Source: Photorhabdus asymbiotica
Lineage (GTDB): Bacteria; Pseudomonadota; Gammaproteobacteria; Enterobacterales; Enterobacteriaceae
Direction of reading: 5' to 3'
Length of the DNA stretch: 64,000 nt
Assembly (NCBI RefSeq): GCF_003634575.1
Contig: NZ_RBLJ01000001.1
Location: 558,001-622,000 of the forward strand
This document shows positions 2 through 53,526 of the stretch, piece by piece (positions within the stretch are counted from its first letter, which is position 1; each line of letters opens with the position of its first letter). Made by a program: the position numbers and the translations under genes. Below the pieces are notes generated by a model, which made no database searches, was not told the DNA's origin, and worked only from the letters and a program-made list of their open reading frames with translations.

Positions 2-583
2 GACACCGCAGATTCCTCCATTGCAACACAAATTACCCAAAACCCAATCATTAAACGTCTCAAAGAACAAAACAAGATCAGCTTACAACGAAACACCTGG
101 ATGCCATTCTATGATACCAGCGAAGAACGGAAAAACGTGCCAAACCGGGCTGAACAACTGACAAAAGGGTGTGATCAGGTCTTTGAAAATATCGTTCTGA
201 CACCACATGGTGAAATTTCCGCCTGCTGTGGTCTGACATTAGAGCATATCCCGGAAATGAAACTGGGTCGGTTACAGGGAGGTGATTTAGCCCAACTTTT
301 CAAAGGGCAAGAAGAAGACTTTATGAAAGTCTGGTTACGGACAGAGGGGCCGTACACGATTCTAAAAAAATATCGCCCGCAAGATAGCGACATTAATCTG
401 GAAAAAATCGTTCATCCCTGCCAAGCCTGTGCCTATTTGCATAAGGACGAAGGAACACGCCAGAATTTATTAGATAATTATCATGGGGAAATTATTCCAA
501 TAATCAAAAAATTTAATGCCAAAGAAAGATTGGATCTTCTGATATATCAATCAGCAGCAGAAAATACAGTTGACTCAATATAA
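2..583 (+). CDS. Radical SAM/SPASM-like enzyme, C-terminal part (runs off left edge)
   Basis: The frame is open from the first bases, so only the last 193 residues are visible and the true start lies outside the window. The visible part has a motif of the form TPHGEISACCG, then a short spacing into a KLGRL segment, and later a HPCQACAY cysteine cluster. This resembles the auxiliary iron-sulfur (SPASM/twitch) region at the C-terminus of many peptide-modifying radical SAM enzymes. The diagnostic N-terminal CxxxCxxC motif is off the window, so the assignment is by pattern only. The stop lies 10 bases before the next gene, a Tat-like precursor-type protein, suggesting co-transcription and a role in modifying it. 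It could also be a non-RiPP SPASM oxidoreductase. Confidence 0.6.
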   Translation, partial: DTADSSIATQITQNPIIKRLKEQNKISLQRNTWMPFYDTSEERKNVPNRAEQLTKGCDQVFENIVLTPHGEISACCGLTLEHIPEMKLGRLQGGDLAQLFKGQEEDFMKVWLRTEGPYTILKKYRPQDSDINLEKIVHPCQACAYLHKDEGTRQNLLDNYHGEIIPIIKKFNAKERLDLLIYQSAAENTVDSI

Positions 584-593
584 GGGGTAAATA

Positions 594-1589
594 ATGAAAC
601 GACGTACATTTATTGGTGTAGCCGCCGGAGCTGCCATTGGCAGTGTCATACCCACCGTTAACGCAAAAGCTAACAGCAATCGTCTCTTTGGCGTACCACG
701 TTCATTACTCTCTCCAGGAGAAGTTGAAGAAAATAAGCTCAGGCTGTCAATGTCACATGCCAAACTCCCGGTTGAAATTTGGGAAGATATCATCGCCTAT
801 AACCGATTTTGGGAAACCATAAAACAACAACCTGAATTAGTATTAGAATATAGAGAGTCACCAGAAAAAGTTCTGAATGAATTTGGCATAGACAAAAATA
901 TTGTTAGCCCCGGTTCCTCAGAGGAATTATTGCTATTTATCACTTATGATAAGGAGTTAATGGATGCGGTAAAAACCAACAACTATGAGAAACTATTTTC
1001 CCGACTAAAGACTTACGGCCTAAATAAAAGGAAATCAAACCTGAGAAGCCGGATCAATTACTACCTTAGCCAGGATGCCAATCTGGTTGCACATTTTAAA
1101 GATTACATCCCATTAGAGCAGCCAGAAAGTTCCCCGCTTATCAGGTTGAAAGAAATCCTGGAACCTGTGAACAACAAAGATGATACCCGCCTTACAGCGG
1201 GGGCAAATATGGTTGCCGCTATTAATATGGCCGTCGTCGTTACCGTGCAAACATCTACCACAGTAAATGTCTCAACGACAACTAGCGTATCCGCATTTGT
1301 CTTAGTAACTATCCTGACAAAAATAGCTGGAAAACATAGGGTAAATTATCGCCCTCAAATTAATCATGAAGACATTTCTGTCAGTGCTGCCTCTCTTCAC
1401 CTTGCCAGGATCTATCACAATCGAGCAATGGTAGATACGCTGGTCAGAGAAACAATTCGGCGAGAAGTCATCGCTTGCCTGTTTGCCGCACAGAAATGTG
1501 GTTATATTAACCTTCCAGTGACTCGGACAGAACGCAAAGAAGTGATTCATCTTTTTACCGAATTGTCTTTAGAGATGATGATAACATAG
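594..1589 (+). CDS. Tat-like leader protein with Val/Thr/Asn-rich segment; possible RiPP precursor, copy 1
   Basis: This 331-residue protein has no family I can name. It starts after a GGGG-type RBS, 10 bases downstream of the radical SAM-like gene. Residues 1-24 form a twin-arginine-like signal (RRTFIG, then a small-residue hydrophobic stretch ending VNA). Residues about 60-100 contain NRFWETIKQQPEL followed by SPEKVLNEFGI, which by eye resembles nitrile-hydratase-type leader peptides of proteusin precursors. Residues about 201-245 are rich in V, A, N, T and S and have little charge, and differ strongly from the paralogue at 2243. The last ~75 residues are again conserved and include an AAQKCGYINLP motif. 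Alternatives are a secreted structural protein or an unknown Tat substrate. An ERIC separates it from the second copy. Confidence 0.6.
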   Translation: MKRRTFIGVAAGAAIGSVIPTVNAKANSNRLFGVPRSLLSPGEVEENKLRLSMSHAKLPVEIWEDIIAYNRFWETIKQQPELVLEYRESPEKVLNEFGIDKNIVSPGSSEELLLFITYDKELMDAVKTNNYEKLFSRLKTYGLNKRKSNLRSRINYYLSQDANLVAHFKDYIPLEQPESSPLIRLKEILEPVNNKDDTRLTAGANMVAAINMAVVVTVQTSTTVNVSTTTSVSAFVLVTILTKIAGKHRVNYRPQINHEDISVSAASLHLARIYHNRAMVDTLVRETIRREVIACLFAAQKCGYINLPVTRTERKEVIHLFTELSLEMMIT

Positions 1590-1678
1590 ACAATATCATG
1601 GAGTTGAATCTGAATTTCAGCACAGAATCTCAATGACAAACATCACTATGATTCATATTTGTAAGCCATAAATTTTTA

Positions 1679-1801
1679 TACCCTTCATCCTTCAAGCTGC
1701 TGCTTTGTTGGCTGCTTTCACGCACTCCAGTCACATAGTTATCTATGCTCCTGGGGATTCGTTCACTTGCCGCCGCGCTGCAACTTGAAATCTATTGGGT
1801 A
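1679..1801 (-). repeat. ERIC/IRU element, type A
   Basis: A 123 bp imperfect palindrome running from TACCC to GGGTA, with the ERIC core (CAGTCACATAG, CTCCTGGGGATTC) in reverse orientation. It lies in the 650-base gap between the two paralogous precursor-like genes, so it may be transcribed. The rest of the gap (1590-1678 and 1802-2242) holds no gene and probably carries the promoter of the downstream operon. Confidence 0.95.
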
Positions 1802-2242
1802 TATCGAATGAGGTGGTAATCAAGGAAAGGAAATATTTTGTCATCCTTTAGGAATATTTCCACCACCTATTCTGTGAGCAGACTCTAAATAAGCACATTT
1901 TGTAACTCAATATATTTAGCCTAAACACCAAAAATATAAATTTAATCAACTAACCTATTGCAAAATGGAACCATCCGGCTAATAGTTAGTAGCGCCTAAC
2001 CTTTAATCGAACGGAGGACAAATTATTCTATGCTTTCTCACCAGATATGAGGAATAATATCCAAATACTGTTACGGTAATCACAATATATACTTTTGCAA
2101 TGAGCATCGTTGATAAAAATATTAGCCATATAATTACTTCATGAAACTATATCAGTAATAAAGAATTTAATAAGAAAAGGTTGAATTTCGTCTTATAACA
2201 CTCAGTAAAAAAGAATTTCGTTCACTTATAAAGGAACCAATG

Positions 2243-3253
2243 ATGAAAAGACGCACATTTATTGGTGTAGCTGCTGGAGCAGCTATTGGCAGTGTCATAC
2301 CTACCGTTAATGCCAGTATTGACAGCACTCGTCTATTTGGCGTGCCACGTTCACTACTTTCCCCAGGAGAAATCGAAGAAAATAAGCTGAGACTGTCAAT
2401 GTCAAATGCCAAACTCCCGGTTGAAGTTTGGGAAGAAATTATTACCTATAACCGGTTTTGGGAAACCATAAAACAACAGCCTGAATTAGCATTAGAATAT
2501 CGAGAATCACCAGAAAAAGTGTTGGATGAATTCGGTATAGACAAAGATATTGTTAGCCCCGGCTCCGCTGAGGAATTACTGCTATTCATCACGTATGATA
2601 AAGATTTAATGAATGCAGTAAAAACCAACGATTATGAAGCGCTCTTTTCCCGACTAAAAACCTATGGTTTAAACGAGAAAGGCTCAAGTCTGAGGAACCG
2701 AATCAATTATCACCTCAGTCAAGACGCCAACCTGGTTGCACATTTTAAAGAACATATCGAATCCTACCAGCTACAAGATACAGACAATCCTCCACTTATC
2801 CGGTTAAAGGAAATTCTGGAGCCTTTAAACAGCGAAGACGATACCAGCATTGAGATTGCCCGCCTGGTAGTCGGAGCAAATGTGGTTGCTGCGGTTAACG
2901 TGGCTGTCGGCACCAGAGTCGTCGCGGCGGTAAATGCGGCGGCGGCGGTTAACGTAGCTGCCTATTTAAGTCTGGCAGTACAAACAGTCGTTACTGTATG
3001 CATGGCAAATTATCTACCCAAAATTGACCATAGCGACCTTTCAACCGGTACGGCTTCTCTTCATCTTGCCAGGCTCTATAACAATCAACAGATGGTAGAC
3101 ACACTGGTTAAAGAAGCTATCCGGAGGGAAATCACTGCCTGCCTGTTTGCTGCACAAAAGTGTGGTTATATCAATTTGCCGGCAACTCGCGAAGAGCGTA
3201 AAGAAGTGATTCATCTTTTCACCGAATTATCTTTAGGAATGGCAGTAGCATGA
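2243..3253 (+). CDS. Tat-like leader protein with Val/Ala/Asn-rich segment; possible RiPP precursor, copy 2
   Basis: A 336-residue tandem paralogue of the protein at 594. Two ATG codons are adjacent (2240 and 2243); the second gives the same MKRRTFIG start as copy 1, with AAGGAA upstream. The first ~200 residues and the last ~75 are largely identical to copy 1. The segment between (residues about 207-255) is different: it has short repeats such as VVAAVNVAV and VVAAVNAAAAVNVAA and ends with TVVTVCMANYL. Alternating V/A/N runs of this kind recall proteusin (polytheonamide-type) cores, but here the segment is followed by a long conserved tail, which is atypical. The stop overlaps the start of the next gene (ATGA), so the two are translationally coupled. 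Confidence 0.6.
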   Translation: MKRRTFIGVAAGAAIGSVIPTVNASIDSTRLFGVPRSLLSPGEIEENKLRLSMSNAKLPVEVWEEIITYNRFWETIKQQPELALEYRESPEKVLDEFGIDKDIVSPGSAEELLLFITYDKDLMNAVKTNDYEALFSRLKTYGLNEKGSSLRNRINYHLSQDANLVAHFKEHIESYQLQDTDNPPLIRLKEILEPLNSEDDTSIEIARLVVGANVVAAVNVAVGTRVVAAVNAAAAVNVAAYLSLAVQTVVTVCMANYLPKIDHSDLSTGTASLHLARLYNNQQMVDTLVKEAIRREITACLFAAQKCGYINLPATREERKEVIHLFTELSLGMAVA

Positions 3254-3744
3254 GTAATATCGTGGGATTAAATCCGGACCTCAAAGTCATATTAATGAAC
3301 GTCGCCATGTTCGTCCTTATTGCCCTGGTTTTGCTGCCAATACCATACTGGCTCAATAACAGTAATCCCAATAAATTGGTGGCAGGCATTACAACCACTC
3401 TCTTTATCATCATCACCTTATTTGTGAGCTATCAACTATTATCAAATAAGGCGGTGGTCAAGGAAGGAAAATTATTAATGAAGTCCGGAGTATATTCACA
3501 CGAATGGACTATTTCCTCATTGCGCCGGGAAGAAGGAACTTCCCTGAATGACTTTCATCGCAGTAATGGTATACATATTATCCATTATTCATCCGGATAC
3601 TATCAAAAAAAACCAAACACATATTTTATTCTGCGTACCAGCAAACGTCCTCTGGTGTGTTTTAGTGCAGAAGATAATATTGGATTATGCATAGATGAAT
3701 CTGTTTACGAAAGAATAAATAGCTCGTTGCAAAATAAAATATAG
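3250..3744 (+). CDS. Small inner-membrane protein, unknown function (possible bacterial PH-like domain)
   Basis: A 164-residue protein whose start overlaps the preceding stop (ATGA). Two hydrophobic segments (residues about 13-34 and 43-62) are separated by a short polar loop. A soluble C-terminal part of about 95 residues follows, with beta-rich character (KEGKLLMKSGVYSHEWTIS, then HIIHYSSGYY and TYFILRTSKRP), resembling small membrane proteins with a PH-like domain; that resemblance is by eye only. It lies 17 bases before the NRPS gene and is clearly in its operon. A role in assembling or positioning the biosynthetic or export machinery is possible but not shown. Confidence 0.65.
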   Translation: MSNIVGLNPDLKVILMNVAMFVLIALVLLPIPYWLNNSNPNKLVAGITTTLFIIITLFVSYQLLSNKAVVKEGKLLMKSGVYSHEWTISSLRREEGTSLNDFHRSNGIHIIHYSSGYYQKKPNTYFILRTSKRPLVCFSAEDNIGLCIDESVYERINSSLQNKI

Positions 3745-3761
3745 AGTGGAGTCGCAGGATA

Positions 3762-6700
3762 ATGGAATATAGTGAAAATTATTGGCCATTGAACTATACA
3801 CAGCTCCGTTTAGCCATTGCTAATACTGTAGCTGATGATAAGTCTGCCTTTAATGTCGGCGAATTCGTCAGCTTCAGTGACAATATTAATCTAGAAAGAC
3901 TAGAACAAGCTATTATGACCATTCATAATTTTAATGATGGTTTTTCTTTACGTTATCGTCTTGCTGAACAAAACATTTTTCAGGATCGAGGATCTGCACC
4001 GATTGAAGTCATACGGATAAAACAGTCAAATTCGATGATAGAACACGCGGCTAAAACTGATTTTGAAAAGAGAGCAACTGAACCGCTGGACATCGAAAAT
4101 GGTGTCACAATCAGACATTATCTTTATTTTAATGATATTGGATGCTATTTTTGGGGAATAGTTGCTCATCATGTTGCTACAGACTATTGGGGAATTGGGC
4201 AATTAATTCACGATGTTTTATCCTGCTATGAAGAAACCCCATTTCCGCCAATATTAGAACCTGTTTTTACCTATCATGCTTACCTTAATGACGCTAAATA
4301 TAAGGCAAGCGTACATTATGCCAACGACAAAAACTATTGGGATAATTATCTTCACCAACTTCCCATATTAGAAGATTACACACGGAAACGCTTATTTCCT
4401 TCAAAAACGATTAAAGTCACCCGACCGCTCACCGCAAATAACGACAGTTTCACTTTTAATGATAAATTGATAATGATATTGGCCTTATGTTTACAAATGA
4501 CCAAACAGGGCCATTTATCAACAAGTATTATCAATTTACCTTTCTCCAATAGACGAAGCAAAGGAGAATATCGTTATTATCGCCCCGCTATGAATACCTT
4601 GCCTTTGATGGTTTCTTTATCTCCAGAAGCAACAATAAAACAGATTCTTGGGGAAATGCAATCTCAGATCAGTTTACATAGCAAACATAATCGTATTGAT
4701 ATAAATGATTTAAGCGATAGCGCGATAAACCGAGCGGATCAATTAACTTCTGCGCCCTATGTTAACCTATTACATGAGCTTGAACATGATTTCATGAAAA
4801 ATAACCGCGCTACTCGCGGTTGTATGACTTCCGGTGCAGTAAATAATTATGGCATTAATATCCGATTCTCTTCTGACGAGAAATCGGCATTAGTTGAATT
4901 AGATGCAGGGAGCCGACTGTATAATTATTTTACCGCACATGCTTTGATTGATGAATATTTACGCATCTATAGCGCTATTACGGAGAATATCAATGAAACT
5001 ATCGATACATATTGGATAAAATATAACAAAATAGCACCAGAAAATAATACCATATCGAACGGAAAAACTATAGGTAATATTTCCATAAATCACCCTATCA
5101 AAGAGAATATTATTGTCAAAATAGCGCAAATCGCCTCGGAATCACCAGATAAAAAAGCCGTTATTTGTGGGAATCAAACCGTAATAAACGCCGCACATTG
5201 CCTTACTTACTGTGAACTTTACTATAAGTTATTAAACTTCAGCCAGCAGCTATTATCTTATCAGATACAAAACCGAAGGGTAGCCGTGTTATTACCAAGA
5301 GGAATGGAATCCTTATTATCTATATTAGCAATCCATGCTACTGGGTTATGCTTTGTTCCAATCAACATGACATTCGGACAAGAAGAAATCAGCAGTATAT
5401 TACGTGGACTGAATATCTCTTTATTGATAACTGCACATCGTTATCATGAAAAAGTAAACGGTATTAATCATGCACATATTTTCTTTGTTGAAGATATAAA
5501 TACGATCCCTAATGGAGTATTTCTTGAACATGACATAAAACATCCAACGACCAAAGAGGACGAAGCCTATATCTTTTTCACATCAGGAACCACTGGCGTG
5601 CCAAAAGCAGTACCGATAACTTTTAAGGGACTTTATGCTTATTTGGCAGCTATGACAGATAATTATGGCATTAAACAGGATGATGTTATTCTTAATTTCA
5701 GCACACCAGTTTTCGATGCTTATATTGAAGAAGTGTTCGGATGTTTTTATCTGGGAGCCACACTGACAATTGCCAGTGATCAAATGATTGCTGAGCTTGA
5801 TACACTGTTTTCATTTTGTCATGCTCAATCGGTTACTATAATTAACTTTCCTACCAATTACTGGCATCAAATTGTCTTTTTCCTACATGCAGCCATTAAA
5901 GAATTGTCACCTTCGATCAGAATGACAATTATTGGTGGCGATTTAGCAATGGATAAAGCTATCCTCCATTGGTTAGAAAAAGTAGGCTGCGGGATCTCCT
6001 TAATTAACTCTTATGGCCCAACAGAATGTTGTGTTATAGCTAGTTGCCAAAAAATAGATGATGAATTCCAACCCGGCAATATCATTGGCAAAGCGTTGGC
6101 AAATACCTCTATCGTTATTCGGGAATATGGAACTGATAAAATCATCAGCGGCAGTAGTGGAGAAATATGCATCCGTGGCGATTCTATCTGTGCTGGATAT
6201 ATTAATGATGACGAATCAACTTCACGCAAATTCTTACGATTGAATGATGGAGAAGTTTATTATCTAACCGGAGATCGTGGATTTTACGATACTCAGGGGA
6301 ATTTAAATTTCATTGGCCGATTGGATAAAGAGCAAAAAATTGATGGAAAACGTGTCAATTTGGAAGAAATGCACAAAATACTTGCAACAACTTTCGATAT
6401 CGACGAGATTCATTTAACGGTAAAAGAAAATGAAACCGGGTACCAGTATATTAATATATTTATACCTCATGATGTATACCCGATAGATCGCCACGAAATT
6501 GTCTCCTTCCTGCGCGGATGCTATCCAAAATTGCAGATACCTTTTATTGTCGAATTGAGTTCATCCAATCAATCTGTTCCAGAGCCAGATTTAAGTAAAA
6601 GAAGCAATATGCCACAAATTGAAGGAGAAAAACGCGAATTATTTTTCACTTTATGGCGAGAAGTCTTTGGCGATAGTGACAAAATAGTTAATGAGGATAC

Positions 6701-8129
6701 CGATTTCTTTGACGCAGGCGGTACTTCTCTTAAAGCATTGTTGCTAATTAATAAGATCCAACAACGCTTTGATTGCACAATCCGTCTGGAAGATTTCTAT
6801 CAATCTCCCAGATTAGGTTATTTGTTGCAATCTGTTATTCAGCAGGGACGGACGCCTGTTTTAACCAATAAAAATAGCACCTGCCTGACAGAACAGCACG
6901 ACCAGTATTATTGGATAATTGACACTATCTCTAATCGTTCAGGGGCACATAACATACCGTTATATTATCATCTTGCCGGTAATATCGATTTAAAGAAATT
7001 ACATCATGCTTTGTTGTATACCATGCAATATTTCCCTGCCCTCTGCCAAAGGGTAACAATGGCAGACGGGCAACTCTCTTTATCCTTTTTACCTATTACC
7101 AAAGAGAGTTTACCCTTCGAATATATCGACCTGACTTATGCTACAAGCATTAACATTGAGATTTCATTACGCAAGATCTTAAATGATATGGCATTCAAGC
7201 CAATGACATTACAGGAGAATCCACCAGTATATTTTAAGCTACTAAAAGTAGCGGAGAATGAACATTATCTCTTGTTAAATTTCCATCATGCATTTTGTGA
7301 TGGAATGTCAATTGCTCATGTGCTGCAAAAATTATCTTCAGCTTATACCAATAATACACAGAACATAGAGGCCGTTACAAAAACAGAAGTTGCTGTCGCT
7401 AATCCGCGTATGTCAGATGAAACATTGAATTTTTGGACCGAAAAACTAGTCAACGTACTTTCTATCACCGGAAAACATAATTCTGTACCAGAGGCTAATC
7501 TTCGAATTCGTGGTCGACGCTACTCGATGCCATTGTCCCCTCAATTAATTGCAACATTATCTTCGATACAAAAAAAACACGCAGTTACTCTGGAACATAT
7601 CGTGATTGGGGCATTTTCGATGACCATCAGATCATTACTCAATAAAAACGAGCTAATCGTAGGCATCCCTTGCGCCAACCGTGTTCCTCCTGTGTCATTC
7701 GATAGTGTCGGCAGCTTCGCAACAACATTACTATTGCCTTATGCTACTGCTGAAACCTCATTGATTAACGTATCTAAGTATGTCCGTGATTTCCTGATGG
7801 ATGCAAATACACATTCCAATATTTCGCTGGCGTACTTAAAACAACATCTTCACCACTATCACAATATGCAATTACCAGAAATCGCTTATTATTTCTCTTC
7901 TCAAATGGGATTCTCCACCAATTTGCATCTTGGTGAAACCCATTGCACAAAGGAAAAAATTAAGGGGCTTAAGCCCAAAGGGGATATTGCTCTCGAATTA
8001 GTAAATACACCAACCGGGTTGGGTCTGGAATGGCTCTATGACGATGATATTTTCTCTGAAGAGATTATTAACAATATGGGACTGTTTCTGATTGATTTAT
8101 TGGATTACATGGGCGCTCAGCATGACTAG
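3762..8129 (+). CDS. Nonribosomal peptide synthetase, C-A-T-C, no thioesterase
   Basis: This 1455-residue protein has four recognisable parts. An N-terminal condensation domain (~1-430) carries HHVATD at 136-141. An adenylation domain (~450-950) has FFTSGTTGVPKA at about 605-616, NSYGPTE at 749-755, a YLTGDRG motif and GRLDKEQKIDGKRVN. A carrier domain has GGTSLK with the phosphopantetheine Ser at 989. A second condensation domain (~1040-1455) has HHAFCDG at 1175-1181. VFDAY keeps the Asp that normally binds the amino group of the substrate. The NGK lysine expected at the end of the A domain is not seen; the aligned stretch reads SVPEPDLSK (Asp943, nearest Lys946). No thioesterase or reductase ends the protein, so release must use another enzyme or the last C domain. 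It sits in an operon with export genes and a free carrier protein. Confidence 0.93.
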   Translation: MEYSENYWPLNYTQLRLAIANTVADDKSAFNVGEFVSFSDNINLERLEQAIMTIHNFNDGFSLRYRLAEQNIFQDRGSAPIEVIRIKQSNSMIEHAAKTDFEKRATEPLDIENGVTIRHYLYFNDIGCYFWGIVAHHVATDYWGIGQLIHDVLSCYEETPFPPILEPVFTYHAYLNDAKYKASVHYANDKNYWDNYLHQLPILEDYTRKRLFPSKTIKVTRPLTANNDSFTFNDKLIMILALCLQMTKQGHLSTSIINLPFSNRRSKGEYRYYRPAMNTLPLMVSLSPEATIKQILGEMQSQISLHSKHNRIDINDLSDSAINRADQLTSAPYVNLLHELEHDFMKNNRATRGCMTSGAVNNYGINIRFSSDEKSALVELDAGSRLYNYFTAHALIDEYLRIYSAITENINETIDTYWIKYNKIAPENNTISNGKTIGNISINHPIKENIIVKIAQIASESPDKKAVICGNQTVINAAHCLTYCELYYKLLNFSQQLLSYQIQNRRVAVLLPRGMESLLSILAIHATGLCFVPINMTFGQEEISSILRGLNISLLITAHRYHEKVNGINHAHIFFVEDINTIPNGVFLEHDIKHPTTKEDEAYIFFTSGTTGVPKAVPITFKGLYAYLAAMTDNYGIKQDDVILNFSTPVFDAYIEEVFGCFYLGATLTIASDQMIAELDTLFSFCHAQSVTIINFPTNYWHQIVFFLHAAIKELSPSIRMTIIGGDLAMDKAILHWLEKVGCGISLINSYGPTECCVIASCQKIDDEFQPGNIIGKALANTSIVIREYGTDKIISGSSGEICIRGDSICAGYINDDESTSRKFLRLNDGEVYYLTGDRGFYDTQGNLNFIGRLDKEQKIDGKRVNLEEMHKILATTFDIDEIHLTVKENETGYQYINIFIPHDVYPIDRHEIVSFLRGCYPKLQIPFIVELSSSNQSVPEPDLSKRSNMPQIEGEKRELFFTLWREVFGDSDKIVNEDTDFFDAGGTSLKALLLINKIQQRFDCTIRLEDFYQSPRLGYLLQSVIQQGRTPVLTNKNSTCLTEQHDQYYWIIDTISNRSGAHNIPLYYHLAGNIDLKKLHHALLYTMQYFPALCQRVTMADGQLSLSFLPITKESLPFEYIDLTYATSINIEISLRKILNDMAFKPMTLQENPPVYFKLLKVAENEHYLLLNFHHAFCDGMSIAHVLQKLSSAYTNNTQNIEAVTKTEVAVANPRMSDETLNFWTEKLVNVLSITGKHNSVPEANLRIRGRRYSMPLSPQLIATLSSIQKKHAVTLEHIVIGAFSMTIRSLLNKNELIVGIPCANRVPPVSFDSVGSFATTLLLPYATAETSLINVSKYVRDFLMDANTHSNISLAYLKQHLHHYHNMQLPEIAYYFSSQMGFSTNLHLGETHCTKEKIKGLKPKGDIALELVNTPTGLGLEWLYDDDIFSEEIINNMGLFLIDLLDYMGAQHD

Positions 8130-8177
8130 ACTCCTGACAATACGAAACGATAGCAAATACTAAGATGGATACTGATT

Positions 8178-9332
8178 GTGCCGATCAAAAAAAAGAAATG
8201 GATAATTACCACTACCATCATGATCATTTTTATCGCCGTGGTTTATTACACATTCAGCCGGAAAGAAACGCCTGCTGTGATGGCAGAGCAAATCATCACT
8301 GGAACGTTAGGTGATGTCATCACGACGGTAGATGCTGCTGGTATTATACAACCGACTAGTCAAGTTAACGTTGGTAGCCAAATCTCGGGCCAGTTAATTA
8401 AGTTATATGTTGAAGTCGGGGATATCGTCGAAGCCGGTAAGCTGGTTGCCAGCATTGATGATACTTTTTATCGTACTAAAGTTGAGGCGAGCCGCGCGCG
8501 ATTAGAAAAATTGCGAGCTATATTGAAGGAGGAACAATATACCTACCAACTCCTAGTCATTACTGAAAAACGCCAAAGGCAACTTAATCTATATTCTGCA
8601 ACCAGCCAACAATTACTGGATGAGGCAACTTTCGGAGTAAAAAAAAGTCTGGCGAGAATTGAAAGTCTCAAGGCAGACATCAAACAAAATGAACATATTT
8701 TACATAGCGAAGAGGTCAGCCTTAGTTATACCCAAATCTATGCACCTATTGCCGGCGTAGTAACTGCAATCTATGTTGATCCAGGACAAACCCTAAATGT
8801 TAATCAACAGACACCCGTTCTCATGCAAATTGCCGATCTCAAAAATATGACCGTTTATGCAAAAGTTTCTGAAGCAGATATAAACCAAATCGTGACCGGG
8901 CAAAAAGCCTCTTTCAAGATCTATAGTGCAAATCAGCATATATGGCACGGTAATGTTAAGAAGATCATGTATAAACCAGACCTAATTAATAATGCAGTTT
9001 ATTATACGGTACTGTTTGATGTAACTAATGACAATTTCCTGCTAAAACCCAACATGAGTGCTGATGTCACTATTGTGACACATGAAAGCACGGGGGTAGT
9101 GACCATCCCCAATAACATACTAAATAACAAGCGGCATCAACCTTTAAATGAGAATCTTACCGCTTATTTTTTACGAGAGGTGAAAGATGGAAATATCGCA
9201 GTAAGGAAATTGCTCATTGGTCATAATGATGGAGTACACTCAATTGTTGTCAGCGGATTACAGAATAATGAACAGATCGTTGTCCTTTCTAAACAAGATA
9301 ATCTTGGTGGTAAAGATGATAATCCTAAATAA
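8178..9332 (+). CDS. HlyD/MacA-family periplasmic adaptor of ABC exporter
   Basis: A 384-residue membrane fusion protein starting at GTG; no in-frame ATG lies close upstream. One N-terminal membrane helix (residues ~7-25) anchors it. A barrel-sandwich half-motif (GSQISGQLIKLYVEVGD, ~65-80) precedes a coiled-coil hairpin (~95-170) rich in K, E and Q. A second half-motif (YTQIYAPIAGVVTAI) and beta-barrel and membrane-proximal domains follow. This is the layout of MacA, which bridges an inner-membrane ABC transporter to an outer-membrane channel. Its end overlaps the next gene, which encodes the ATPase. It probably exports the product of the NRPS or precursor genes. No outer-membrane TolC-type gene is in the window, so chromosomal TolC would be used. 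Confidence 0.92.
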   Translation: MPIKKKKWIITTTIMIIFIAVVYYTFSRKETPAVMAEQIITGTLGDVITTVDAAGIIQPTSQVNVGSQISGQLIKLYVEVGDIVEAGKLVASIDDTFYRTKVEASRARLEKLRAILKEEQYTYQLLVITEKRQRQLNLYSATSQQLLDEATFGVKKSLARIESLKADIKQNEHILHSEEVSLSYTQIYAPIAGVVTAIYVDPGQTLNVNQQTPVLMQIADLKNMTVYAKVSEADINQIVTGQKASFKIYSANQHIWHGNVKKIMYKPDLINNAVYYTVLFDVTNDNFLLKPNMSADVTIVTHESTGVVTIPNNILNNKRHQPLNENLTAYFLREVKDGNIAVRKLLIGHNDGVHSIVVSGLQNNEQIVVLSKQDNLGGKDDNPK

Positions 9333-9978
9333 TATCTGTAAGATCTACGACAATGAGAACAAACAGCATCTTGCGCTGAAAGATATCTGCTTAACAATCG
9401 ATCCACATGACTACGTTGCTATTCTTGGTCGCTCCGGTTCAGGGAAAAGTACCTTATTAAATATAATCGGACTTTTGGATACCGCCAGTACGGGAAAATA
9501 TCTTATTAACGACCTTGAAATCACTCAGCAAAAAATTCATTCATTGGCACTTTTACGACGGAAATATTTTGGGTTTGTTTTTCAGAACTACAATTTACTC
9601 GATAATTACCGGGTCGATGAAAATATCTTAATGCCCATGTACTACTTAAAAAGAGATTTCAATTACGACAGAAAATATTTCAATTACTTAATAAAGCGTC
9701 TCCAACTTAATAATTTATTAGATAAATACCCGCGTCATCTTTCTGGCGGAGAACAGCAACGCGTTGCTGTAACCCGCGCATTAATCAATAATCCGAAGTT
9801 TATTATTGCTGATGAACCTACCGGCGCACTAGATACCACTAATGCGACCAATCTGATGCAACTTTTTACTGAATTACATAATAGTGGATGTGGCATCATT
9901 CTCGTGACACACGATCAAGCTGTTGCCGGATACGCCAAGCGCAAGTTGTACCTGGATAACGGTTCTTTGGTGACATAA
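9316..9978 (+). CDS. MacB/LolD-type ABC transporter ATPase
   Basis: A 220-residue ATPase. I chose the ATG at 9316, which gives the usual [11 protein letters not shown] start and overlaps the adaptor gene by 17 bases; a longer in-frame extension to 9217 would lie inside the adaptor. Walker A is GRSGSGKST, the signature is [11 protein letters not shown] and Walker B is [12 protein letters not shown], all intact. The sequence is of the MacB/LolD/FtsE type, which powers mechanical transmission rather than classical transport. In E. coli MacB the ATPase and permease are one polypeptide; here they are separate genes. The stop overlaps the permease start (TAATG). Confidence 0.94.
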
Positions 9979-11207
9979 TGGGCATAATAAAAACACCCCT
10001 AAAGCTTAATATTTATTCTACTGTTATCCTATTTAACCTCAAAATGGCAGCACGCTCCCTTGTGGCACATAAGACACGGGTTTTCTTAACTTTGCTATGT
10101 ATTGCCATCGGAGTAGCTTCAATTGTGATTATGCAGGCTATCGGGATGGCAACTAAGGATCACATTGTCAAAGCTGTTTCCTCAATGGGAAGTAACATCA
10201 TCTCCGTAAAATACAAAGGGCAAGAAAGCGGTGCTTTCGATTCCCATAATAATTATCTGACCCAAAAAGATATCACGTCACTTTCAGGTAATCCGCATAT
10301 CAGCTACAGCACCCTTTTTTCCACTGCTTCAGGGACAATAGTTTCTCCACAAGGCACTACCAATGCTCAGTTGATCGGTGCGAATGCGGATATTGCAATT
10401 ATCCGAAATCTGGTCATTGAACGCGGGCGTTTTTATACACCAAAAGAAGACGAGACTCTGGCAAACGTCGTCGTTTTAGGTGCTTCTTTGGCCGAAAGAC
10501 TATTTTCCCATAAAGAATCTGCATTTGAACAGAATATCAAAATTAACGACATTTCTATGCGGGTCACCGGCATCCTGGCACAGAAAGGTGAAGGCATGGA
10601 TGTAGGAGTGGATGACACTGTTTTTATACCAAGAAATAGCTATCTGGTGAGACTATTCGGCAATACGCCTCCCAGTGGTATCGTGTTGAAAGCCAAAGAC
10701 GCTTCTCATGTCGAATCAGTTAAGCGCGCTGTTGAGGAACAGTTATCACCGTTTAAACGTCAACAAAGCTATGAGATACGAAATACTACGGAATTGTTGA
10801 AAACTTTGAATGAAACTCAGTCGAAAATTAACCTTTTCCTGCTATCAATATCATCGGTAACGCTCTTTGTTGCAGGAGTTAGTGTTATGAATACTATTTT
10901 GATCAGTGTCAGAGAGCGTAAAAGAGAAATTGGTATACGACTTGCCGTAGGAGCAAGTTATTCCGATATTTTTTATCAATTTCTTACCGAAGCATTTTTG
11001 ATTTCATTATTGGGAGCGCTATTAGGATTATTATTCTCATTTATCGGTTTCAAGATCTTATCACTATTTGATATTGCCGTTGGCTTCTCATTTTATTCAT
11101 TTCTATTGGCTTCCCTCTCGGCATTTTTCATTACGGTGGTGTTTGGCGTATATCCATCCCATCGCGCAGCAGCATCCGCGCCGATCGAAGGGATCAGGGA
11201 ATTGTAG
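9978..11207 (+). CDS. MacB/FtsX-family ABC transporter permease
   Basis: A 409-residue permease. One membrane helix near residues 32-52 is followed by a large periplasmic domain (~60-280) of the MacB type. Three C-terminal helices (~285-310, 330-360, 370-395) follow, with the conserved VMNTILISVRERKREIGIRLA segment between the first two. This is the FtsX-fold architecture used by MacAB-type tripartite exporters. It starts on the last base of the ATPase stop codon and lies in one operon with the NRPS and the carrier protein 32 bases downstream. Confidence 0.94.
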   Translation: MGIIKTPLKLNIYSTVILFNLKMAARSLVAHKTRVFLTLLCIAIGVASIVIMQAIGMATKDHIVKAVSSMGSNIISVKYKGQESGAFDSHNNYLTQKDITSLSGNPHISYSTLFSTASGTIVSPQGTTNAQLIGANADIAIIRNLVIERGRFYTPKEDETLANVVVLGASLAERLFSHKESAFEQNIKINDISMRVTGILAQKGEGMDVGVDDTVFIPRNSYLVRLFGNTPPSGIVLKAKDASHVESVKRAVEEQLSPFKRQQSYEIRNTTELLKTLNETQSKINLFLLSISSVTLFVAGVSVMNTILISVRERKREIGIRLAVGASYSDIFYQFLTEAFLISLLGALLGLLFSFIGFKILSLFDIAVGFSFYSFLLASLSAFFITVVFGVYPSHRAAASAPIEGIREL

Positions 11208-11484: not shown

Positions 11485-12657
11485 TCATGATGAGTGGTGG
11501 ATAAGCCATGTAGCAAGATCAGTAATCACCTGCTCTGGAATCTGGCTTGGTTGCAGATAATCCTCGCTACTGGAATATCCTGTTGTAGGCAATAAAATGT
11601 GATTCAACCCAGTATAAAGTTTGAATTCCGCATCTTTATTGCCTTGCAGTGCAGTTTTCCACATTGCCAAGTCAATATCATACGGAACCTGAAAATCCTG
11701 ATCACCTTGAGCCAAGAATAAAGGTATTGAGGGCAAATCTTTTAAGCAAGTCAATGCGTGGTAACCCTCAATTTGTTTGAGATAACTCTCCGGTACGGCC
11801 AGCAAGTTCGCAAGAGACACCGTATCGTTCTCTTTCCCACTGGATAATTGGGATAAAATCACCTGAAGTAAACTACGAAATGGCGTCGCCAGCATCACTA
11901 TGCCCGCAATATTTAGACCCGACTTTTGCCGTAAATTCTTTGCAATTAATGGGCTAACATATCCGCCGAAACTGTGCCCAACAAGGAATACCGGCACATT
12001 GTGAAATTCAGTATGTTCCATTAAGCCAGTTAAAATATTACATGCGTCATCAACAATTTCTGCATTAAGATCTATCGACTCTGGATCGGTATTTCCCTGC
12101 CAAGAGCGATAATAGCGTTTGTCAAACCGTGCGCTTGCGATACCGTATCGGCTTAACTCATGTGCCAACATACGAAACAGTGGATTAGGACCAACATCAT
12201 AATCCATTGAATGCGGACCAGAACCAGCAAGCAATAATGCCAGTGCTTTGACATTATGTGGTGACGGCAGACACACCAAACCATCAGGAAGCTCTTCAAG
12301 GCCAAACTCCCTTAGCATTTTTTCGGTAAAAATGCCCGGCCTTTCATACGCATTGGGTATCGGGCATCGAGATAACGTAAGCGAATCAATTTGCTGATCT
12401 TTAAGCCCAATATAAAGATTGAATTTTCCATTGAGAGTATTTAGTCGCAGATGACAAGCACCTTGCTGGTGGTAAATAATATCGATATCTGAGTTATACA
12501 AACTGTCTGCCAGTGCAATTAAAGTCAGATCATCAGCCACCACGCGCAATGGTTCATTCATTAATTCCCTAGCAGCTTCCCATTGTTCATCAAGTAACGC
12601 AGTTATCAATACTGTTATTTCCTCATCCAACGCGGTAATTAATCTCTTAACAAGCAT
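11485..12657 (-). CDS. Alpha/beta hydrolase (serine esterase/thioesterase-like)
   Basis: A 390-residue protein convergent with the carrier protein gene, 17 bases apart. I chose the ATG at 12657; an upstream in-frame TTG would add four residues. The first ~120 residues form a separate domain of the kind often found before this hydrolase type, followed by the hydrolase fold. An oxyanion segment reads LLLAGSGPHSMD, the nucleophile motif is GHSFGG (Ser229), an acid candidate is in GDQDFQVP, and the catalytic His is in YTGLNHIL. No signal peptide is evident, so it is probably cytoplasmic. It could release or hydrolyse the NRPS product, or give self-protection. That role is inferred from position only. 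Confidence 0.85.
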   Translation of the reverse strand: MLVKRLITALDEEITVLITALLDEQWEAARELMNEPLRVVADDLTLIALADSLYNSDIDIIYHQQGACHLRLNTLNGKFNLYIGLKDQQIDSLTLSRCPIPNAYERPGIFTEKMLREFGLEELPDGLVCLPSPHNVKALALLLAGSGPHSMDYDVGPNPLFRMLAHELSRYGIASARFDKRYYRSWQGNTDPESIDLNAEIVDDACNILTGLMEHTEFHNVPVFLVGHSFGGYVSPLIAKNLRQKSGLNIAGIVMLATPFRSLLQVILSQLSSGKENDTVSLANLLAVPESYLKQIEGYHALTCLKDLPSIPLFLAQGDQDFQVPYDIDLAMWKTALQGNKDAEFKLYTGLNHILLPTTGYSSSEDYLQPSQIPEQVITDLATWLIHHSS

Positions 12658-12835
12658 GCCATTTCTCAAATAACGGTGATTTGCTTTTTTATATCAATTT
12701 TTGCTCAAGTATCCCAGTCTTTGGTGTTTTTGATATGAAAAGCCCGATATACAGAAAAATTGTGCAGATTAAATTCAGACGAAATAGTTTTTTAATCAGT
12801 GTAGGGATTATTTAGATTAGTAATCGTGATAATAG

Positions 12836-52000: not shown

Positions 52001-52141
52001 GGCATTACCATTGTTGGTGGCCTGGTCATGAGCCAACTTTTGACACTATATACCACACCGGTGGTTTATCTTTGTTTTGATCGATTAAGAGAAAGATGGC
52101 AACAACGGCGCGCCACCAGACAAATTACGGGACAATCATGA
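49055..52141 (+). CDS. mdtC: RND efflux transporter subunit MdtC
   Basis: A 1028-residue RND pump, paralogue of MdtB. It opens with [20 protein letters not shown], and has [16 protein letters not shown] with the helix 4 Asp pair. It works as the second subunit of the MdtBC trimer. The E. coli operon continues with mdtD; here the stop overlaps the baeS start directly, so mdtD is absent. Confidence 0.97.
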
Positions 52142-53526
52142 AACTAAGTATCAGCAGTAAATTATTTATGGCTATCTTCGCTACTTGTATGTTGGTACTT
52201 ATCACTATGCACTGGGGTGTCAGAAGCAGTTTTCAGCGTGGTTTTATTGGTTATATAAAACAAAATATCCAGCTACGCACTTCTATGTTAGCTGAAGCAC
52301 TTGCTGAGCAATATCAACAATATGGTAGCTGGAAATTCTTAAAGAAGAATAATCGGATCATCTTTCAAATAATCCGTTCTATTGAACAAACCAGTGAAAG
52401 CCACCAAGGCCCACCACCCCGTGGCTGGAGAACTCAGTTTTGGGTCGTGGACAGAGATATGAAATTATTGGTCGGTCATGAAGGTGAAATTCCACCAGAT
52501 ACCTATAGAGAACCAATTAATTATAATAATCAAATAGTTGGATGGGTAATTGTCAGTACGTCTGACAAAATTACCCGCCAGGCTGATATCAGTTTTGATC
52601 GCCAGCAACAACTGACAAGCTGGATAATTGCAGGCCTATCTACTTTACTGGCAATCATAGCCACATTATTGTTGTCTCGCGGTATGCTAAAGCCCGTTAA
52701 GCGCCTGGTTGAGGGGACACATAAACTAGCAGCCGGCGATTTTAGTGTCCGAGTGACACCATCAAGTAAAGATGAAATCGGTCAGCTTGCCTACAATTTT
52801 AACCAACTTGCCAGCACACTGGAAAAAAATGAGCAAATGCGGCGCGATTATATGGCAGATATTTCCCATGAACTGCGCACTCCTCTTTCTGTATTGCGGG
52901 GTGAACTGGAAGCTTTACAGGACGGTGTTCGCAAACCAACATCTGAAACGCTGAATTCATTACTGGCAGAGATCACCACATTAACCAAACTAGTTGATGA
53001 TCTGCACCAACTATCTCTATCAGATCGTGGAGCGTTGGCATATCGGAAAGGATTTATCAATATCAGTGAGTTACTTCAGGTTGCCATAGCATCTTACCGT
53101 GGACGTTTTATTGATAAGCAAATTCAGGTGGATGTTAAGCTACCTGAAATTGTCATGCTATTTGCTGACCCAGACAGGTTGACTCAACTATTTCATAATT
53201 TACTGGAAAACAGCCTTCGCTATACCGCTAAAAATGGAAAACTGATGATTGAAGGCAACTCTGATGATAGCCATTTTATACTGAACTGGCAGGACAGCGA
53301 ACCCGGCTTGTTACCAGAACAATGTCAGCGGGTCTTTGAACGCTTCTATCGCAGTGAATCTTCACGAAACCGCGCCAGTGGTGGATCAGGGCTTGGGCTG
53401 GCTATCTGCTATAACATCACTGAAGCACATAATGGTACGATCCATGCTGAACCCTCACCTTTAGGTGGCCTGAGAATTAACATAGAATTACCGCTAATAA
53501 AATCCCCTGATTGTGAAACGCTATGA
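52138..53526 (+). CDS. baeS: Sensor histidine kinase BaeS
   Basis: Envelope-stress sensor that phosphorylates BaeR. The ATG at 52138 ([19 protein letters not shown], 462 residues) overlaps the mdtC stop; longer frames inside mdtC are not supported. Two helices flank a periplasmic sensor (~32-165), then HAMP ([17 protein letters not shown]), the phospho-acceptor motif [17 protein letters not shown], and the ATPase domain with LLENSLRYT and [10 protein letters not shown]. Confidence 0.97.

Follow-up and report, generated by a model that had tools for sequence, protein, structure and literature searches.

To our knowledge, few producers of ribosomal D/L beta-helical peptides are known. Among the channel-forming proteusins, polytheonamide is described as held in a beta-helix by its D-residues (PMC9505594), the methylated Asn residues 16, 22 and 28 of polytheonamide B as a hydrogen-bond chain along that helix, and aeronamide as methylated at Asn 25, 31, 37, 41 and 43 (PMC11285071). 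In the epipeptide system of Bacillus subtilis (epeXEPAB/yydFGHIJ), the product EPE is reported as a linear peptide of 17 residues, the 32-residue leader of which is removed on export, with EpeP as the peptidase and EpeAB as the transporter (PMC12871923, PMC8326336). Its radical S-adenosylmethionine (SAM) epimerase, YydG/EpeE, is described in PMC8326336 as carrying two clusters, as producing two D-residues, with Cys223 as the proposed hydrogen donor, and as belonging to a lineage with no significant homology to the proteusin epimerases; the known epimerases of both lineages appear, according to the same source, to be leader-independent. Here we analysed a stretch of 64,000 nucleotides from Photorhabdus asymbiotica (the window), at the left edge of which the gene of a radical SAM enzyme is followed by the genes of two precursor-like proteins. 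We consider it probable that one or two membrane-active RiPPs (ribosomally synthesized and post-translationally modified peptides) with D-amino acids are produced from this locus, the core of which would be epimerised, exported in the precursor and released as a D/L beta-helix.

The features on which the argument turns, with their positions in the window, are as follows.

2 to 583, + strand: C-terminal 193 codons of a radical SAM enzyme (YydG/EpeE-like) of 353 residues, the full gene being L003:11522-12583 in the parent genome
594 to 1589, + strand: precursor 1, 331 residues, with a twin-arginine translocation (Tat)-like signal, leader, internal core and tail
594 to 668, + strand: Tat-like signal of precursor 1, by its motif only (MKRRTFIG...)
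807 to 890, + strand: leader motif FWETIKQQPEL...SPEKVLNEFGI of precursor 1, with a sub-threshold TIGR04351 match (E = 0.0053)
1194 to 1328, + strand: putative internal core of precursor 1, rich in Val, Ala, Asn and Thr, with a Val/Ile period of 2 (a 45-residue window set by composition)
2240 to 3253, + strand: precursor 2, 337 residues
2240 to 2314, + strand: Tat-like signal of precursor 2 (motif only)
2456 to 2539, + strand: leader motif of precursor 2, with a sub-threshold TIGR04351 match
2855 to 3001, + strand: putative internal core of precursor 2, with Val/Ile alternation and an Asn ladder
3250 to 3744, + strand: membrane protein of 164 residues, a candidate immunity protein, bacterial-PH-like (pleckstrin homology) via its relatives

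An earlier note on this DNA had described a cysteine-rich, SPASM-like C-terminus followed after 10 bases by a leader-bearing protein. This layout was confirmed in the sequence: positions 2-583 are the in-frame C-terminus of a cysteine-rich protein, and 10 bases lie between its stop codon and the ATG of precursor 1. The leader motif quoted there, the inner segment rich in Val, Ala, Asn and Thr, the conserved tail and a KRRTFIG motif were all found. Precursor 2 follows precursor 1 after a gap of 650 bp, and the start of the membrane protein gene overlaps the stop codon of precursor 2.

When the left-edge gene was extended leftward in the genome, a CxxxCxxC motif (CNAACKEC) was found close to the N-terminus, so that the radical SAM identity, which the earlier note had left open to refutation by the lack of such a motif, stood. 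Pfam matched Radical_SAM at 1.4e-8, above the cut-off, and SPASM at 0.032, below it, and the top NCBIfam model was TIGR04078, the YydG peptide epimerase (4.8e-26). A profile built from 13 sequences matched the YydG structures 8ai1-8ai6 in the PDB with E = 2.5e-44 over profile positions 8-316, the next match being at 2.5e-6; judged by these comparisons, YydG/EpeE, rather than the proteusin epimerases, is the closest characterised relative of the enzyme. Cys235-Cys236 align with chain residues 247-248 of the 344-residue YydG chain, and, if the native YydG has 319 residues and the offset is a 25-residue tag, as we assume, Cys236 would correspond to native Cys223. Eight Cys residues, the EpeE Cys223 position included, were conserved in 17 of 17 aligned enzymes (the window enzyme, 14 other lineages and two closer YydG-like enzymes). 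The window enzyme carries both the CxxxCxxC motif and a Cys at the position of the catalytic Cys223 of an epipeptide-type epimerase, although it scores below the equivalog cut-off of TIGR04078. A PoyD-type epimerase would have a single cluster and a C-terminal RiPP recognition element; the enzyme instead gave the EpeE-like alignment with five further Cys kept, and no PoyD model was among the 25 best of the 32 NCBIfam matches, no search having been aimed at the recognition element. From its sequence, the enzyme is epimerase-like but does not belong with the proteusin epimerases, and it cannot be assumed that the leader takes part in enzyme binding. A viperin-type defence function was considered and rejected, as the PADLOC pVip match (4.2e-11) was weaker than that of YydG and covered only residues 21-150.

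The likeness to the epipeptide system comprises a homologous enzyme over nearly its full length, with the cluster Cys and the Cys223 position kept, and a precursor that adjoins the enzyme. Unlike the epipeptide system, the locus has a precursor of about 335 residues, the core of which lies internally between a signal-like N-terminus and a tail, and MacAB-type genes come after it. Where an epipeptide would call for a short precursor, its leader followed by a product of about 17 residues, we found proteins of 331 and 337 residues with an internal core. No Pfam peptidase family, as expected for an EpeP-type peptidase, was matched at the gathering score among the genes from 594 to 11207; an ATP-binding cassette (ABC) ATPase and a MacB-like permease are present in the cluster.

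The enzyme was present in 12 of 12 Photorhabdus genomes. In wider samples it was rare (found at 1e-40 in 3 of 398 genomes from the phylum and at 1e-30 in 2 of 369 from the class, its own genome counted), and a scan of the family with TIGR04078 at 1e-15 found 5 of 198 genomes, namely two Photorhabdus, G430 (another genus of the family) and two with closer YydG-like enzymes. All 11 enzyme-containing Photorhabdus loci have the membrane protein together with one or more full-length precursors, and locus L005, which starts downstream of the enzyme, holds both as well. Precursor 2 was full length in 11 of the 12 Photorhabdus loci, and the first copy in L010, L013 and L014. The first copy of P. heterorhabditis is broken (L004:8869-9214), and the second copy of P. 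australis is a remnant of 135 residues, most of the leader being gone (L013:11272-11679). G430 has the same gene order, including two open reading frames (ORFs) related to a non-ribosomal peptide synthetase (NRPS), MacA, the ATPase and MacB, with identities of 27-51% to the window cluster; its hydrolase lies elsewhere in the stretch. The enzyme, a precursor and the membrane protein occurred together in G430, Eleftheria, G090 and the provirus loci L037-L041 and L043, and these three genes make up the minimal unit, as seen in Eleftheria, G090 and the proviruses. Loci L038-L043 are closely alike and thus represent few independent cases.

The cassette lies inside predicted proviruses (IMG/VR contigs L037 and L038-L043) as possible prophage cargo, in L038 behind a tail-protein gene (phrog_52); the enzyme ORF of L042 lacks the N-terminus, and L044 is a fragment only. 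The closer YydG-like enzymes, encoded in two other genomes from this bacterial family (L033:5711-7403 and L034:7421-9182), each adjoin a membrane protein that carries an HExxH motif; none of the ORFs of at least 25 residues immediately upstream was recognised as a precursor.

Nine organisms were found when plasmids were searched with two enzyme queries: Eleftheria, Enterococcus, Thermus, Lactococcus, Streptomyces, Collinsella, Halocatena, Rhizobium and Klebsiella. A protein with a segment that is hydrophobic or rich in Val, Ala and Asn directly adjoins the enzyme in 8 of the 9. The Rhizobium plasmid (L050:2632-6174) has an integrase-like gene directly upstream of the enzyme, with methyltransferase and alpha/beta hydrolase genes following; no precursor was recognised among the ORFs between the integrase-like gene and the enzyme. 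A methyltransferase is encoded in the Klebsiella, Thermus, Collinsella and Rhizobium loci, and in all four its best PDB match was to 7rc2-7rc6 (2.9e-14, 5e-15, 2e-6 and 7.7e-18, respectively). These entries bear only the title 'Methyltransferase family protein'; we take them to be AerE, the aeronamide Asn methyltransferase. A serine hydrolase of the Beta-lactamase2 family lies near the precursor in Thermus (L021:6248-7270) and Eleftheria (L016:5139-6449).

Precursor 2 is 73% identical to precursor 1 and up to 96% identical to its matches in Photorhabdus species. Precursors 1 and 2 share 96% of the residues of their signals, 78% of those of the leader and 71% of those of the tail, but only 38% of those of the core, and this divergence of the core against a kept leader and tail looks RiPP-like. 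Together with the linked modifying enzyme, the locus thus shows the general features of a RiPP system, namely a conserved leader and a core that diverges between paralogues. Across greater distances the order is reversed, since precursor 2 shares 46% and 34% of its core with L037 and Eleftheria, respectively, vs 23-25% of leader and tail; this higher core similarity arises in part from biased composition. The internal position of the core and the conserved tail reported in the earlier note were borne out, the tail after the core having 83 residues.

Whether these proteins belong to the proteusins, as the earlier note proposed, depends on the leader and on the enzyme. The profile search of the leader against the families with a nitrile hydratase-like leader peptide (NHLP) gave a TIGR04351 match of 21.6 bits, far below the cut-off of 65; the same model reached E ≤ 0.05 in 9 of 13 precursors (best 1.2e-4), and TIGR04509, also NHLP-type, matched the Streptomyces precursor at 0.0012, again below cut-off. 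A true proteusin, that is, an NHLP-leader precursor with an acquired signal and tail, would account for these weak matches and for the Asn spacing of the core, which is like that of the channel-forming proteusins; but the matches lie well below the curated cut-offs, the epimerase is of a non-proteusin lineage and the core is internal, and we judge this reading improbable. A plain proteusin assignment was set aside on account of the internal core and the different enzyme lineage. The locus resembles polytheonamide and aeronamide in its core rich in Val, Ala and Asn with Asn every 6 residues and, in relatives, in the methyltransferase with its best PDB match to 7rc2-7rc6. It differs from the channel-forming proteusins in its unrelated epimerase lineage, in the lack of a methyltransferase in the Photorhabdus cluster, in a leader for which NHLP membership is not established and in its core, which is not C-terminal as in a proteusin. 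The part of the earlier interpretation that placed a peptide-epimerase-type radical SAM enzyme beside RiPP-like precursors was retained, and proteusin membership was not.

No invariant Cys column was found in the precursor alignments, and sactipeptides, ranthipeptides and protein-cofactor maturation were set aside on this ground. The same observation bears on another alternative. Cross-linking is common among radical SAM enzymes that have SPASM-like cysteines, and a cross-link or thioether, in the core or in another part of a large exported protein that stays uncut, would suit the long conserved leader and tail and the fact that no protease has been assigned. With no invariant precursor Cys, and with an epimerase whose hydrogen-donor Cys is kept as the closest enzyme, we regard such a product as very improbable. 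The C-terminal part of the Collinsella precursor (L051:3246-5047) matches DUF5969 (PF19394), and the annotated start of the Collinsella enzyme is too late, cutting off the CxxxCxxC motif.

The periodicity of the core was examined by two tests. In the alternation test, the period-2 power of a Val/Ile indicator in a 36-residue window was compared with protein-wide shuffles for 12 precursors (those of Klebsiella, Collinsella and Halocatena, found later, are outside this test). The values were P = 0.002 for precursor 1, 0.020 for precursor 2, 0.012 for G430, 0.002 for Eleftheria and 0.002 for L037. When 99 proteins taken from six sources were scanned with the precursors not marked out, the five strongest signals were those of precursors, and 6 of the 7 proteins at P ≤ 0.02 were precursors; the seventh, encoded at 52096-53526 of the window, ties in strength with precursor 2. 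In the Asn-spacing test, P-values were obtained for the precursors with more than two Asn in a 45-residue window rich in Val and Ala. All 4 Asn of precursor 2, which stand at i, i+6, i+18 and i+24 with Arg at the skipped +12, fall in one class modulo 6 (P = 0.0022), as do 5 of 6 in the G430 core (0.0009), while 16 of 16 Asn in the Thermus core are on one parity and the counts are 9 of 9 in Klebsiella and 13 of 14 in Collinsella. Hexad Asn cores are those of precursor 2, G430, Thermus, Klebsiella and Collinsella. In the control, 6 of 47 proteins with at least 4 Asn in the window had P ≤ 0.0025, all of them precursors (precursor 2 being counted in two species), and the other 41 had P ≥ 0.07. Under a harsher control, using the Asn-richest window of 97 proteins, Thermus and Klebsiella remained below 0.0025 and Collinsella was at 0.0078. 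Precursor 2 combines Asn at i and i+6 (0.0022) with alternation (0.020), as expected of a beta-helix, and precursor 1 shows alternation only. In precursor 2, the alternation and the Asn ladder speak for a beta-helix rather than a simple hydrophobic peptide; the case is weaker in precursor 1.

We take the layout to be more than chance because the radical SAM/precursor pair persists across Photorhabdus as well as in distant lineages, because the five strongest period-2 signals belong to precursors and because every protein with P ≤ 0.0025 in the Asn-spacing control is a precursor. That the precursors are ordinary proteins exported by Tat, in which a hydrophobic segment happens to lie, and that the radical SAM gene stands next to them by chance, would agree with the Tat-like motif and with the all-helical, low-confidence structure model, but the pair recurs in many unrelated lineages and such core periodicity is rare; this reading is largely refuted by the conserved pairing, and we give it almost no credence.

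A further alternative is that the enzyme epimerises one or a few residues, giving a linear membrane-perturbing D-peptide of the epipeptide or SDP (sporulation delaying protein) type without a beta-helical channel. As background, SdpC releases an internal hydrophobic peptide from an exported precursor, SdpI is the immunity protein against SDP, and we know of no radical SAM step in that system. Compared with SDP, the present locus has in common a probably exported precursor and a putative internal hydrophobic product between leader and tail, and SdpI or DUF1648 adjoins three relatives; it differs in having a PH-like membrane protein rather than SdpI in the window cluster and in that its matches to toxin_SdpC (TIGR04032) are weak, seen in 3 of 13 precursors with a best value of 4.6e-4, below cut-off. 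These matches, the SdpI/DUF1648 neighbours in three lineages and the relatives with neither alternation nor Asn ladders speak for few-residue epimerisation, as does the enzyme lineage, that of EpeE, described as a maker of two D-residues (PMC8326336). Epimerisation of a few residues would leave the hexad Asn and the Val/Ile alternation without a reason, and we consider it unlikely.

BLAST linked the membrane proteins of six Gram-negative lineages (window-G430 3e-23 to 4e-22, window-L039 9e-5), the remaining links running through Eleftheria and G430. The bPH_5 model was matched at cut-off in G090 (1.6e-8) and L037 (8.2e-5) and below cut-off in the window protein, G430, L039 and Eleftheria. The predicted model of the 164-residue protein, with a predicted local distance difference test score (pLDDT) of 73.7, shows helices at the N-terminus and a beta-domain that closes with a further helix. 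Near the enzyme/precursor pair, SdpI was found in Thermus (1.3e-15) and Klebsiella (7.9e-12) and DUF1648 in Collinsella (8.3e-13); neither was found in the window cluster. By its position, and because SdpI/DUF1648 stands beside the pair in these relatives, the 164-residue protein is a candidate for immunity.

In the reading we favour, the EpeE-type enzyme would epimerise alternate residues of a core of about 45 residues, within the precursor of about 335 residues, in the cytoplasm, abstracting the C-alpha hydrogen, with Cys236 returning a hydrogen. The whole modified precursor would then be exported, most likely by Tat, and modification would thus precede export. Proteases would cut on both sides of the core, the alpha/beta hydrolase being a candidate only, and the MacAB-like exporter, where present, would take the peptide out of the periplasm. 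The peptide may form an alternating L/D beta-helix, with Asn at i and i+6 stacked as in polytheonamide, and act on membranes, the small PH-like membrane protein protecting the producer. The enzyme family, the kept cysteines, the linkage of the genes, the build of the precursors and the periodicity of the core are read from the sequences, whereas epimerisation with its pattern, Tat export, cleavage, the beta-helix, activity and immunity are inferred.

Several observations weigh against this reading. The enzyme scored 91.9 bits with TIGR04078, vs an equivalog cut-off of 300. The Tat-like signal of the earlier note is present as a motif, both precursors beginning KRRTFIG (with an extra Met first in precursor 2) before a hydrophobic stretch, but its assignment to Tat is by motif, the NCBIfam Tat model TIGR01409 giving no match on the window proteins at E ≤ 1. 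By eye, an RR motif with a hydrophobic stretch is also present in the precursors of G430, Eleftheria, G090, the L038 provirus and Thermus; the Tat model scored 0.1 on the Thermus precursor, below cut-off, the L037 signal has no RR motif, and no such signal was seen by eye in the precursors of G149, Enterococcus, Lactococcus, Streptomyces, Klebsiella, Collinsella and Halocatena. Alternation was not significant in 7 of the 12 precursors (L038, G090, G149, Enterococcus, Thermus, Lactococcus and Streptomyces). Asn spacing was not significant in precursor 1 and L037, nor in Enterococcus and Lactococcus; the cores of the first copy of L010, Eleftheria, L038, G090, G149, Streptomyces and Halocatena hold at most 2 Asn and are outside the spacing test, those of Eleftheria, L038 and Streptomyces having none. 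Precursor 2 does not stand out in the control with the Asn-richest window, and the periodicity P-values are uncorrected for the number of precursors tried. As some precursors have neither alternation nor an Asn ladder, not every core in the family looks beta-helical. AlphaFold gave no usable model of precursor 2 (mean pLDDT 44.8) and drew its core as a helix. No methyltransferase was found in the Photorhabdus cluster, and no protease has been assigned. The L013 stretch has no NRPS, MacAB or hydrolase and L015 only the NRPS and a shortened MacA, so that export cannot always use MacAB.

A better description of the locus is an epimerase of the EpeE type beside a precursor that is probably exported and has an internal, polytheonamide-like core. 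A literature search, with most subscription journals and preprints outside its scope, gave among the matches listed no paper on this Photorhabdus locus or on a precursor of a radical SAM epimerase that bears a Tat or other signal. In two single-contig genomes the distance between the enzyme gene and dnaA is 2.2 and 2.5 Mb; if, as we assume, plu gene numbers start at dnaA, identity with the Photorhabdus bacteriocin cluster plu0082-0077 is unlikely, though not disproved. That cluster is given as unknown in a survey of Photorhabdus/Xenorhabdus clusters (PMC9177418).

A wider proposal, to which we lean slightly less than to its denial, is that there is an overlooked family of D/L beta-helical channel peptides made by EpeE-type epimerases, separate from the proteusin enzymes, in which a Gram-negative peptide is freed from a large protein after export and to which Thermus, Klebsiella and Collinsella add a putative Asn methyltransferase and an SdpI-type protector. 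If so, polytheonamide-like channels arose with two epimerase lineages and are scattered in enterobacteria, gut bacteria, thermophiles, prophages and perhaps haloarchaea, and a genus-wide cluster in a culturable symbiont, with plasmid and prophage cassettes, would yield the same architecture by a different epimerase. The locus would then offer a tractable system for the setting of stereocentres along about 45 residues within a protein of 335 residues, and for the passage of a peptide across two Gram-negative membranes and the survival of its producer; it would also suggest functions for unnamed families such as DUF5969 and the small PH-like membrane proteins.

The other features of the locus are the following.

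1680 to 1805, + strand: 126-bp intergenic repeat between the two precursors, with 49 matches genome-wide
3762 to 8129, + strand: NRPS with C-A-T-C domains, related to two G430 ORFs
8178 to 9332, + strand: MacA/HlyD-like periplasmic adaptor
9316 to 9978, + strand: ABC ATPase, read from the ATG at 9316, with a TTG at 9217 as another possible start
9978 to 11207, + strand: MacB-like permease
11485 to 12669, - strand: alpha/beta hydrolase (Hydrolase_4/S33), a possible maturation or detoxification enzyme, its association being weaker

The NRPS, MacA, ABC ATPase and MacB genes follow the membrane protein gene with gaps of at most 48 bp, and these genes and the hydrolase were found downstream in 10 of the 12 Photorhabdus loci. 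The NRPS is a conserved part of the cluster; its Pfam matches include no thioesterase, and in G430 it corresponds to two separate ORFs (L032:3075-6958). The 126-bp repeat lies within the 650-bp gap and is not thought to be part of the mechanism; part of its 49 genome copies are in tandem.

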